In this document: one piece after another, positions 7,557 through 61,286 of the stretch
How positions within the stretch are numbered: the stretch's first letter is position 1
Layout: each line of letters opens with the position of its first letter
Source: Promethearchaeota archaeon
GTDB taxonomy: Archaea > Asgardarchaeota > Lokiarchaeia > Sigyniarchaeales > SOKP01
Reading direction: 5' to 3'
Length of the DNA: 64,000 nt
NCBI GenBank assembly: GCA_016839705.1
Contig: JAEOTR010000024.1
Coordinates: forward strand, 1 to 64,000
Notes under the pieces: generated by a model
What the model saw: the letters and a program-made list of their open reading frames with translations, nothing else
Database searches by the model: none
What the model was told of the DNA's origin: nothing
Made by a program: the position numbers and the translations under genes

Positions 7557-9917
7557 ATGAAAATAAGAAAAAATATGAAGGTTGGGGTATCTATCATATT
7601 TTTACTTCTTTTATTTACTTCATGTCTTTCACTCATTAATTTATCAAAAAATAATAACCTTCTTGAAGAAAATTCACTTTCTCTTAGCGCGCCGATTGAA
7701 GATCCTATGGAAGACAATGACAACCATGCTAACGCCTGGGGAGTCACTCCAAATTATTATCCTAATCTTACGATTATAGAAACTGATGAGGATTGGTTTA
7801 AACTGTATTTAAATCCCGGAGATACAATTGATGTTTATATTTACTTCAATAATACGGAGGGAGATTTAGATTTGGAACTTTATGATCCTTTTGATGCTGT
7901 TACCTCTCAAACTGGATCTTATTCAACTGCTGATGAAGAGCATATCACGTTTACGGTAGGATTGTCAGGGATGTCAGGAGATTGGCGAATTCGAGTATAT
8001 CATTATGATGGTAGTACAAATGTAACTTATGATTTAGATATATGGATAAATATTGATGACTGGATGGAAAATAACGATGATTTTTGGTCTGCTTGGGGCG
8101 TTGGCCCAGTTAATTATCCTGGTTTGAAGATTGTAGACTTTGACGAAGATTGGTTTCAAATTTATTTAAATCCTGGTGATATGATTGATGTTGGTATCTA
8201 TTTTAACCATTTTGAAGGAGATTTACAATTAGTACTCTATGATCCATCATATATTCAAAGAAAAGATTCTTTATCTATGGGCGATGACGAATTTATTACG
8301 TATATGGTAGATATGCCAGGAGATTGGCGAATTCGAGTATATCATAAGCATGGAAATTCTACAGTACATTATAATTTAGATATATGGTTAACCACTGGAA
8401 CGGGTGGAGATGATTGGGCAGAAGAAAACGATGATTTCTGGTCTGCTTGGGGGATAGGTCCCGGTTTTCATTCTGGTTTAATGGTTGTTGGCTTTGATGA
8501 TGATTGGTTTCAAACTTATTTAAACCCAGATGATATAATCGAAGTAAAAATCTTGTTCGACGACTTTAAAGGTGACTTACAGTTAGAACTTTATGACCCA
8601 TCATATATTCAAAGAGCAGATTCTTTATCCATGGGTCCTGAGGAATTTATTAGGTTTACTGCAGATATGTCAGGAGAATGGCGAATTCGAGTATATCATC
8701 AACACGGAGATTCTGATGTGCCCTATGAATTAGACATAAGGTTAGATGCTAAGGTAGATGATTTCTATGAACTGAATAATAATCCTTTATCTGCTTACGA
8801 CCTCATTCCATATGAAGGATGGTGGTTAACTGGAATAAATGGTCCGGGGTTTCAATTTGACGAAGATTGGTTTGAAATTTATGCAGAACCTGGTTTTGAG
8901 CATCTTATCATTAAATCCCCTGATTTTGGAAGAGAAATTCAACTCGAAGTTTATGACTCAAACCTCAATAACATAGGGGAAGCTATGATTAAAAACAAAG
9001 ATGGGAGTTCTTCTCAAGACTATAATGGACCCATGAGATATGATCTTCCTTCAAGTGGGACATATTATATTAAAGTTTACGGAAATAATCGAGGAAATTT
9101 CTACGATTTCCAATATTTAACCGTGTGTCTCTTAGAAGAACAAACATGGCTCAGTGATATTTATGGAATGGGTGTTCAAAGTAACTTAGATTTTTACTTT
9201 ATAGATGTAACCCCAGGTTTCAAACATTTAGTAGTTGAACTTTTGTTTAATCATACATACGGAAATATCGATATGACACTCTACGATGCATGGGGTTCCC
9301 AAATTTCTAATAGTAGTTCTTTTAGTGATAATGAATACATTAATACTATTCTTCAAGATCCTGGGATGTATTTCCTTTTAATTCAAGGACATAATATGGG
9401 GAATGAGTATGATCTGTGGTGGGATGATAATAAAACCGATACTAGACCTGATGATTTCTATGAGCCGAATAATAATCCTTTATCTGCTTACGACTTATCA
9501 AACAATGAGTATCAATCATTATGGGAAATCAATGATTTGGCTCTACAATATAATGAAGATTGGTACAAAATCGAAATAGACGAAATACAATTACAATTAA
9601 TAGTGATAGTAATATATGATTCTGCAGAAGGTTTAATGGGATTTGAAATTTATGACAGTAATTTCACTAAAATAACAGGGAATTTTACCTTAGATGATAA
9701 CGATTATATCGACTATGAGGTTCCATCCAATGGAACCTATTATATTAGGGTTTTCGGTGATAATTCAGGAAATGTATATAATCTATGGTGGGCAGCCGAA
9801 GAACCTGAGTCAATTGGGATGATACCGGGTTATGATACTCTTATTTTGATTGTATCTATTGTTGGAGTTACAGTAGTTTTGATAAAAATTAAAAGAAGTA
9901 AATTTAGACATCAATAA
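7557..9917 (+). CDS. Secreted, membrane-anchored surface protein with tandem PPC-like domains
   Basis: A 786-residue protein with an N-terminal signal peptide (basic n-region, hydrophobic stretch at about residues 9-28). About six tandem beta-domains of roughly 115 residues begin near 7701, 8055, 8410, 8757, 9150 and 9448. They share an acidic opening (ENNDDFWSAWG or ELNNNPLSAYD type), DEDWF-x-I-Y, LELYD and W/YRIRVY signatures, resembling bacterial pre-peptidase C-terminal (PPC) domains. The first three units are close copies, suggesting recent duplication. The C-terminus has Ile-Pro-Gly-Tyr, a hydrophobic span and a Lys/Arg-rich tail, the layout of an archaeal sorting or anchor segment. It is probably a cell-envelope adhesin or S-layer-associated protein; the ligand is unknown. 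Confidence 0.8.
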   Translation: MKIRKNMKVGVSIIFLLLLFTSCLSLINLSKNNNLLEENSLSLSAPIEDPMEDNDNHANAWGVTPNYYPNLTIIETDEDWFKLYLNPGDTIDVYIYFNNTEGDLDLELYDPFDAVTSQTGSYSTADEEHITFTVGLSGMSGDWRIRVYHYDGSTNVTYDLDIWINIDDWMENNDDFWSAWGVGPVNYPGLKIVDFDEDWFQIYLNPGDMIDVGIYFNHFEGDLQLVLYDPSYIQRKDSLSMGDDEFITYMVDMPGDWRIRVYHKHGNSTVHYNLDIWLTTGTGGDDWAEENDDFWSAWGIGPGFHSGLMVVGFDDDWFQTYLNPDDIIEVKILFDDFKGDLQLELYDPSYIQRADSLSMGPEEFIRFTADMSGEWRIRVYHQHGDSDVPYELDIRLDAKVDDFYELNNNPLSAYDLIPYEGWWLTGINGPGFQFDEDWFEIYAEPGFEHLIIKSPDFGREIQLEVYDSNLNNIGEAMIKNKDGSSSQDYNGPMRYDLPSSGTYYIKVYGNNRGNFYDFQYLTVCLLEEQTWLSDIYGMGVQSNLDFYFIDVTPGFKHLVVELLFNHTYGNIDMTLYDAWGSQISNSSSFSDNEYINTILQDPGMYFLLIQGHNMGNEYDLWWDDNKTDTRPDDFYEPNNNPLSAYDLSNNEYQSLWEINDLALQYNEDWYKIEIDEIQLQLIVIVIYDSAEGLMGFEIYDSNFTKITGNFTLDDNDYIDYEVPSNGTYYIRVFGDNSGNVYNLWWAAEEPESIGMIPGYDTLILIVSIVGVTVVLIKIKRSKFRHQ

Positions 9918-10808: not shown

Positions 10809-11135
10809 GACGCTTGAGATATATACCCACCCTTCTGTACTGCATCCGTCACCAGATGACAGTTGGAGCATCAAACTATGCGGCCTACCTAAAGCTAGCT
10901 CCAAGTACTTTATCGCTTTCATTTGGCCTTGCACCAAGGTTTTAGCTCGTTCCAACCATTCCCTCCTACTATTTCTTTGGCTTATATCCAAGTCATAAAC
11001 ATGCGTAAGAAGGCAGTGTCGTTTCAGTTGCTAAAATACGATTCTCACCGTAGTAGTTTTCTACACCTTGCTTGGAGTGTGGGGTGAGGTTCCTCAGCGG
11101 GTTAAACCCACCGTCAGCTCCATATCTCACTCGTC
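10809..11135 (-). ncRNA. rnpB: RNase P RNA (archaeal type)
   Basis: A roughly 327-nt GC-richer island in AT-rich surroundings. On the minus strand the ends pair as P1: GACG with CGTC and TGAGATAT with ATATCTCA, around a small internal loop. The 5' part has GAGGAA followed by CTCACCC (CR-I), and the 3' part has ACAGAAGGGTGGGTAT (CR-V); CACCC in CR-I can pair with GGGTG in CR-V to form P4, the catalytic core. A P3-like hairpin from GGGTTTAACCC follows P2. Internal GTGCAA and GAAACGAC segments also fit the family. It is the RNA subunit that cleaves 5' leaders from pre-tRNAs. ORFs overlapping it are spurious. Confidence 0.88.
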
Positions 11136-59729: not shown

Positions 59730-60536
59730 ATGAACGACGAATTAGTATTTCTTGGATCTGGTGGCGGAAGGCATCATATAAGGACTCAACATCGAGCCAC
59801 AGGAGGATTCTTATATAAGTTCAATGGAATTACATCGCACATTGATCCAGGACCCGGTGCTATTGTCAGGATGAATCAATATGGAGAGGATCCTGTAAAA
59901 ACAGAGTTATTTATTATTACTCATTCACATATTGATCATTACAATGATGCTAGCGCAATAATCGAAAGTTCAAGAGAACTACTACATGATAAAAACTATA
60001 ATTATTATAAGAAAGGTGTATTGATAACAACTGATGACGTAGTTCGCCTTATTTCCGATTATCATTTGCAAATGGTGGAAGAAATTGTTAAATTAAAAGC
60101 AGGTGATACATTCAAATATAAAGATGTTGAAATTATAGGAACTAAAGTTGTTCATTCTCCACATAATGAAGGATTTGGAATACGATTTAACCTTGAAAAC
60201 TATTCTTTAGCATATACTAGTGATACAATGGTTTTTGACGGATTTTCAGAACAATTCAATGGCGTTAACATTCTCATTCTTAACCTACTGCGTCCTGATT
60301 CTGTTACCTGTAAACGACATGTTTGTACTGATGAAGTTATTCCTTATCTAAATCTTATTAACCCTCCATTAGAAACTTTGATCATAACTCATTTTGGTTC
60401 ATTTATGGATGGTCCTCGTTCAAAAAAAAATCATGTGCCTAGCCAAGTAGCAAAACTCCAAGAGAAAACCGATATTAAAAGAATAATCGCGGCTGAAGAT
60501 GGATTAAAACTAAAGGTAAAAGAATTATTAGCATAA
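59730..60536 (+). CDS. MBL-fold metallo-hydrolase
   Basis: A 268-residue metallo-beta-lactamase-fold protein. The metal motif HSHIDHYND lies near residue 69 (H-x-H-x-D-H), with a later H near VHSPHNEG and another Asp near YTSDTMVF. The GGGRHHIRTQHRATGG segment near the N-terminus suggests a tRNase Z/RNase J-like relative or a lactonase. No beta-CASP domain is present. It is in an operon with the Ras-like GTPase (26 bp gap). Substrate unknown. Confidence 0.85.
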   Translation: MNDELVFLGSGGGRHHIRTQHRATGGFLYKFNGITSHIDPGPGAIVRMNQYGEDPVKTELFIITHSHIDHYNDASAIIESSRELLHDKNYNYYKKGVLITTDDVVRLISDYHLQMVEEIVKLKAGDTFKYKDVEIIGTKVVHSPHNEGFGIRFNLENYSLAYTSDTMVFDGFSEQFNGVNILILNLLRPDSVTCKRHVCTDEVIPYLNLINPPLETLIITHFGSFMDGPRSKKNHVPSQVAKLQEKTDIKRIIAAEDGLKLKVKELLA

Positions 60537-60714
60537 ATCCATAGAAGAAAAATCGTCATCGATCTTAAATTTGGTAATAAGATTTTTTTTAATTAGAAAG
60601 GTTTTGTAATAATTTGAGATGTATTAATATATCTAGCTAATTTATGTCTCAATAATTGTATAAAATCTACGAACCTTATTTGAATTAATACTTTTAATTA
60701 AAAAGAAAAAAAGA

Positions 60715-60985
60715 AGGCCCCAAGAATTCGAGCAAATTTTTAAAATCAGGGAGAGAATTAAACTCGTGAGAGTTTAATAGAGGGCGAATTTTGGAGGAGC
60801 CCTAAACGGACCTCCCTATCCAATGTTTCTCGAATTCATATTGGACACTTCCTAAATGATGGTAGAGTTTCTATTTATAAAAACTAATTGGTTATAAAAT
60901 ATTTATGTTCTAGTGTCGAGAACAAATGAGATTTCACTCCCGAAGGGGGAAATAGTTGAATTTTCAAACTTTTATTTTTTTATTA
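60715..60985 (+). ncRNA. Candidate structured RNA with nested stems and pseudoknot
   Basis: The segment contains exactly complementary strands that nest. P1 is GAATTCGAG (60724-60732) with CTCGAATTC (60829-60837). P2 is AGGGAG (60748-60753) with CTCCCT (60812-60817). P3 is a perfect 9-bp hairpin capped by GTGA, a GNRA-type tetraloop (60757-60778). P4 is AGGGC (60781-60785) with GCCCT (60799-60803). A further stem, TCCAAT (60819-60824) with ATTGGA (60840-60845), encloses the 3' P1 strand, giving an apparent pseudoknot. Another hairpin (60931-60953) is followed by a T-rich run. I recognise no family; it lacks SRP helix 8 and RNase P cores. Confidence 0.55.
60970..60981 (+). terminator. T-rich terminator after the structured RNA candidate
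   Basis: A T tract interrupted by one A lies about 16 nt after the hairpin at 60931-60953. Together they look like the end of a transcript, consistent with a plus-strand RNA. Confidence 0.45.
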
Positions 60986-61124
60986 ATTAATTTTGAAACA
61001 TTTGATACAAGTATTTAAATAGTCAAAAGTGAAAAAAGAGAATTCATGGCACTTGAGTCTTGAAATTCAGAAGTTATATTCGATATTAATACTTTTCCTT
61101 GATTTAATTAATTTTTAGCAAAAA

Positions 61125-61286
61125 TCACTTGCTAATTGGGATCCAAAATCGGCATACGATGCATTGATGAATAGTTTGATATTCTTCTTCACTAGAATGA
61201 TTCATTCGAATCTTTTTTGTAATCATCACGTTGCCGCACTTTTCACATAAAACTAGGTCTTTTGGTTTTAACTTATGTGCGACCAT
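61125..61286 (-). CDS. Small zinc-ribbon protein (53 aa)
   Basis: A short frame from ATG 61286 to TGA 61125. It encodes CEKC (C14, C17) and CIVC (C42, C45), one four-cysteine zinc site, with a Lys-rich N-terminus and a helical middle. The paired CxxC spacing and a frame free of stops support a real gene. Unknown function; similar free-standing ribbons appear elsewhere in this window. Confidence 0.6.
   Translation of the reverse strand: MVAHKLKPKDLVLCEKCGNVMITKKIRMNHSSEEEYQTIHQCIVCRFWIPISK

Follow-up and report, generated by a model that had tools for sequence, protein, structure and literature searches.

A predicted new family of small structured RNA genes in Lokiarchaeia

The window analysed here is a stretch of 64,000 nt from a Promethearchaeota archaeon (assembly GCA_016839705.1, contig JAEOTR010000024.1, positions 1-64,000 of the forward strand). 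The locus of interest is the intergenic region at 60537-61124, flanked by the genes c2 and c5; the c5 protein looks zinc-ribbon-like by eye, had no Pfam match, and is encoded next to the RNA described below in many genomes. The main features of the locus are as follows.

59730-60536, plus strand: c2, encoding a protein of the metallo-beta-lactamase fold (PF12706); it converges on the RNA gene and marks the syntenic place
60701-60712, minus strand: U-rich terminator TTTTTTTCTTTT, 3′ of stem P0
60705-60852, minus strand: RNA of about 147 nt matched by covariance model R2, its predicted 5′ end at P0 and its predicted 3′ end in the U tract
60873-60883, minus strand: TATA box TTTTTATAAAT, its centre lying about 26 nt before the predicted start of the RNA
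60901-60926, minus strand: loosely palindromic upstream element TTTGTTCTCG...GAACATAAAT, variants of which precede many copies
61125-61286, minus strand: c5, a 53-aa protein with CxxC motifs, on the same strand as the RNA in the window

The window also holds an RNase P RNA gene, separate from this element (10811-11133, minus strand; RF00373, 129 bits by cmscan). Many relatives of that gene have a clear promoter, such as ACAAAAATTTAAATA, directly upstream.

An original prediction, made from the letters of the window, had placed a structured RNA with a three-way junction and a pseudoknot on the plus strand at 60715-60985. All the complementary strands that it listed are indeed present (GAATTCGAG/CTCGAATTC, AGGGAG/CTCCCT, TTAAACTC-GTGA-GAGTTTAA, AGGGC/GCCCT and TCCAAT/ATTGGA), and the GC content is raised as described, reaching 0.36-0.43 in the segment versus about 0.20-0.25 around it. 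Over 321 nt, the proposed plus strand folds with a z score of −1.8, only mildly better than chance.

A BLAST search with the segment gave matches in 69 of 147 relatives at an E value of 0.01. Most of these belong to the window's own family of Lokiarchaeia, and the matches cluster on about 60 bases; several borderline ones from other families probably arose by chance. A covariance model of the plus strand built from 24 copies (R1) extended this to 57 of the 65 genomes of the family, with 1-8 copies each. Although R1 proved usable for searching, its mismatches were nearly all of the A.C type, and the strand was reversed. Specifically, the imperfect pairs of stems P1 and P2, when read on the plus strand, comprise 24 A.C cells and 3 G.U cells; since an A.C on one strand is a G.U on the other, this places the RNA on the minus strand. 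The folding energies point the same way: of 49 copies, 42 fold more stably when read on the minus strand (mean z −3.2 versus −1.7). For the window's 147-nt unit itself, both strands fold far better than shuffled sequences, at z −3.8 on the minus and −3.6 on the plus strand.

Signals flanking the RNA agree with a minus-strand gene. When 49 copies were anchored at the first G of P0, an information peak corresponding to a TATA box emerged at −31 to −25, which is the usual distance of the archaeal TATA box from the start site. Downstream, the T fraction in the 14 nt after P0 is 0.61 (51 copies), compared to 0.41 in the control. Such U tracts terminate archaeal transcription together with aCPSF1, and this extends to the Lokiarchaeal enzyme (PMC8716108). 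Judged from these sequence signals, the gene has a promoter and a terminator of its own. The T tract that the original prediction took for the 3′ end is located upstream of the RNA as drawn here, whose terminator reads from 60712 to 60701 on the minus strand; likewise, the proposed boundaries and plus-strand orientation gave way to about 60705-60852 on the opposite strand. A 2-mismatch match upstream of RNase P had raised the suspicion that the GTTC..GAAC upstream element is a promoter element common to RNase P and SRP RNA genes; this was ruled out, as the element is absent upstream of the 30 RNase P and 20 SRP RNA genes compared.

Read on the minus strand, the RNA would have as its core the long irregular stem P0-P1 and the hairpin P2, with the strand ACAUUGGAU/UUCGCCCUC between them. 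From 5′ to 3′, the parts in the window copy are these.

60848-60852, minus strand: P0 5′ strand GGAAG (family consensus GGAAGGG/CCCUUCC)
60841-60846, minus strand: connecting helix, 5′ strand GUCCAA, pairing with UUGGGGC at 60717-60723
60829-60837, minus strand: P1 5′ strand GAAUUCGAG, with both-sided changes at all 8 modelled P1 pairs
60818-60827, minus strand: first half of the invariant segment, AACAUUGGAU, (nearly) invariant in the 37-row alignment A3
60789-60817, minus strand: 29-nt hairpin insert, which had supplied the partner strands of the originally predicted P2 and P4
60779-60788, minus strand: second half of the invariant segment, UUCGCCCUCU, likewise from alignment A3
60757-60778, minus strand: P2 hairpin AUUAAACUC-UCAC-GAGUUUAAU, the 9-bp stem of the original prediction
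60742-60756, minus strand: opposite strand UCUCUCCCUGAUUUU, pyrimidine-rich and semi-conserved
60724-60732, minus strand: P1 3′ strand CUCGAAUUC
60712-60716, minus strand: P0 3′ strand CUUCU

Support for this fold comes from compensatory changes in the homologues, which bear out the expectation of a structured RNA. In A3, a MAFFT alignment that was not fitted to any structure, both-sided changes occur in 13 of 17 pairs (67 cells), a level reached by 0 of 500 shuffles, and the covariation score is 0.325 as compared to at most 0.127 in slid controls; P2 shows both-sided changes in 5 of its 9 pairs. An 85-row alignment, A4, has them in all 17 pairs, including 9 of 9 in P2, and leans towards the model because it was fitted to it. 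By eye, helices equivalent to the connecting helix and likewise compensated are visible in copies L098, L089 and L105.

The same comparison bears on the possibility that the original fold, a plus-strand RNA with three-way junction and pseudoknot, is the correct one. Every strand pair of that fold exists in the window copy, whose 147-nt unit, as noted above, gave a good z score on the plus strand too. However, only P1 and the 9-bp hairpin pass the check for compensatory changes. The partner strands CTCCCT (for the originally predicted P2), GCCCT (P4) and ATTGGA (pseudoknot, overlapping the connecting helix between P0 and P1) each occur in 1 of 59 copies, so the junction and the pseudoknot are rejected as features of the family; by this count, the three stems are either peculiar to the window copy or chance pairings. 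Most copies lack the segment that would supply partners for P2 and P4, the hairpin insert being found in 11 of the 59 copies examined, mainly in the window's genus. The 9-bp stem stands; its GNRA-type GTGA loop varies in relatives and reads TCAC on the strand favoured here. Given that wobble asymmetry, TATA box and terminator all indicate the minus strand, we regard the original fold as highly improbable and consider the element a new family of small structured RNA genes with a different fold.

In the alignments, the strand ACAUUGGAU/UUCGCCCUC remains almost unchanged while P1 and P2 drift with compensation. In divergent copies P2 can be replaced altogether, for example by AUUAUGCGC/GCGUAUAAU in L092, while ACAUUGGAUUUCGCCCUC stays; the latter also persists, with no more than 1-2 changes, in copies whose P2 has been substituted or has almost disappeared (L105, L106, L114 and L101). 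The extreme is a short version of about 90 nt (L101, at 8047-8136; L102, L103 and L104), which occupies syntenic places of its own and has almost lost P2, yet retains the invariant strand and probably P1.

The family appears to be tightly restricted in its distribution. The minus-strand model R2 finds it in 58 of the 65 genomes of the window's family and, at E 0.01, in 0 of 163 other genomes of the phylum; most of the seven family genomes lacking a match are incomplete or fragmented, although one is in 10 contigs. When 15 genomes from outside the family were searched less stringently, three matches above E 0.05 resulted. One of these, weak at 29.8 bits (L319 1501-1613, minus strand; genome G074 of sister family f2), contains UUGGAUUUCCCCCUCU followed directly by a short hairpin and may be a distant relative. 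Scanning 84,980 species genomes for the exact 18-mer ACATTGGATTTCGCCCTC yielded 74 stretches, 69 of which lie in Lokiarchaeota; the five exact matches outside Lokiarchaeia are about as many as expected by chance and score 25 bits or less. The 22-nt consensus CTAACATTGGATTTCGCCCTCT also occurs exactly in the Patescibacteria bin AMOR_Bin_1762 (L228 5980-6059, minus strand), where the stems are absent, and reflects chance or a mis-binned contig. Viral contigs gave ten exact 16-mer matches, none with the structure.

As originally predicted, the element falls outside every Rfam family: with cmscan, neither strand matched anything there, and relaxing the thresholds did not change this. Among the window and 12 loci with relatives, nothing in Rfam 15 exceeded a gathering cut-off except the RNase P RNA elsewhere in the window, and the best sub-threshold matches at the element were far below their cut-offs. 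In the literature, we found no report of this RNA family.

Most genera of the family have one copy between c2 and c5, a place embedded in a wider conserved order that includes genes for a Ras-like GTPase, an N6-methylase-like protein and an EamA transporter. Other copies lie elsewhere in the genomes, some of them in tandem. This arrangement speaks to whether the RNA could be a cis-acting, riboswitch-like leader of a downstream gene. In one group of copies, gene c22 does follow on the same strand, at a distance of about 220-250 nt. Overall, however, the downstream genes vary among copies and none is consistently on the same strand, which makes a leader role unlikely; moreover, a U-rich terminator follows P0, and because the main place lies between convergent genes with the RNA in either orientation, the RNA leads no gene there. 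We consider this explanation very improbable.

Between close species, an inverted block of about 222 bp, which takes in the upstream element, the RNA and the terminator, is seen while the orientation of the flanks is unchanged (L061 and L120 versus L072; L085 versus L110). On a tree of c2, orientation changed at least three times when well-supported branches are counted, and five times in the best tree. In genome G005, four contigs (L064, L065, L066 and L067) end inside identical 127-bp stretches holding the RNA, from which we conclude that the assembly was probably interrupted by two identical copies that differ in their flanks. Together with the several copies per genome and local duplicates 0.3-2.2 kb apart, these identical stretches and the occurrence of the 222-bp unit in both orientations at one orthologous place are what a non-autonomous mobile element would predict, the RNA-like structure being a mere by-product. 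Yet most genera of the family share one syntenic place, and by eye the inversion ends showed neither terminal inverted repeats nor target duplications. The compensatory differences between copies, along with the promoter and terminator, are as expected of a functional RNA, leaving the mobile element an improbable reading, if somewhat less so than a leader.

The interpretation that we favour, with a probability of about 0.68, is that of a stand-alone non-coding RNA gene from a lineage-specific and so far uncatalogued family. The gene would be transcribed on the minus strand between its own TATA promoter and U-rich terminator, and its RNA would adopt the P0-P1-P2 fold and act in trans or within a ribonucleoprotein (RNP) by means of an invariant contact strand. 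This interpretation builds on what comparison of the copies established, namely the family, its strand, P1 and P2, the invariant strand, the promoter spacing and the multiple copies. The RNA would fold into a long irregular stem (P0, connecting helix and P1) capped by hairpin P2, and the asymmetric internal loop between stem and cap would display ACAUUGGAU/UUCGCCCUC opposite the pyrimidine-rich strand. Drifting stems combined with a frozen internal-loop strand are best accommodated, we infer, by a scaffold that displays a contact site. The RNA would then act in trans, with the stems serving as the scaffold and the invariant loop contacting a partner that is itself conserved.

As to the partner, a search for chromosomal antisense targets in six genomes, allowing up to 3 mismatches over 20 nt, returned only the RNA copies or isolated matches, none of them shared, although short seeds or G.U-rich pairing would escape such a search. 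Because it revealed no long base-pairing target in the chromosome, a protein, as in an RNP core, would be likelier than one such target. The invariant strand is no more complementary to 16S and 23S rRNA than shuffled sequences are. A point against a single binding site is that the hairpin insert splits the invariant strand in one genus.

A competing reading is that of an anti-Shine-Dalgarno (anti-SD) regulatory small RNA, whose exposed CGCCCUC and CUCUCCCU would pair with purine-rich ribosome-binding sites of mRNAs to block or tune their translation. Both loop strands are C/U-rich; the SD-like motifs GAGG, GGTGA and AGGGA are enriched upstream of starts, and 16S rRNA ends in CACCTCCT. Rhizobial small RNAs bear CCUCCUCCC loops, one of them with a conserved single-stranded CUCCCUGU motif (PMC3927594) that resembles CUCCCUGAU in this RNA. 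In addition, the 5′ strand can form strong duplexes more often in the region immediately before a start (33 of 382 genes) than at positions further upstream (11 of 382). Against shuffles, however, the enrichment is weak (5-9 of 150), the reversed motif performs almost as well, and the half AACAUUGGAU has no preference for sites upstream of starts. Conservation over 17-18 nt also exceeds what such seeds need. This reading strikes us as unlikely, albeit the strongest of the competitors of a stand-alone RNA with an invariant contact strand.

Going one step further, we tentatively suggest that the RNA may form the core of an unknown Lokiarchaeia RNP built around the almost invariant 17-nt strand, and that its gene may be a naturally invertible unit that has flipped repeatedly in place. 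Asgard archaea are the closest prokaryotic relatives of eukaryotes, and few of their lineage-specific non-coding RNAs appear to have been described. A multi-copy RNA with an invariant core, present in nearly all genomes of a family, offers a definite target, for which an alignment and a covariance model now exist for checking; the in-place inversions of a complete RNA gene, in turn, bear on how small RNA genes move.

Among known RNAs, bacterial 6S RNA (RF00013) is a single long, irregular hairpin interrupted by a large internal loop. The Lokiarchaeal RNA compares with it in this general shape only; it differs in its archaeal host and gave no cmscan match. Archaeal RNase P RNA (RF00373) and SRP RNA (RF01857) are likewise conserved structured RNA genes of the same genomes, SRP RNA matching below its curated cut-off at other loci in 46 of 65 genomes; they differ in that their upstream regions do not carry the GTTC..GAAC element. 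The anti-SD small RNAs of Rhizobiales (SmelA075/SmelA099, and SmelC671 with CUCCCUGU; PMC3927594) are also small stand-alone genes in several copies per genome and combine a C/U-rich conserved single-stranded motif with variable stems and a U-rich terminator. These RNAs are bacterial and no sequence relationship to the Lokiarchaeal RNA was found, and the Lokiarchaeal motif is longer, forms part of an internal loop and has in ACAUUGGAU a portion that is not anti-SD.
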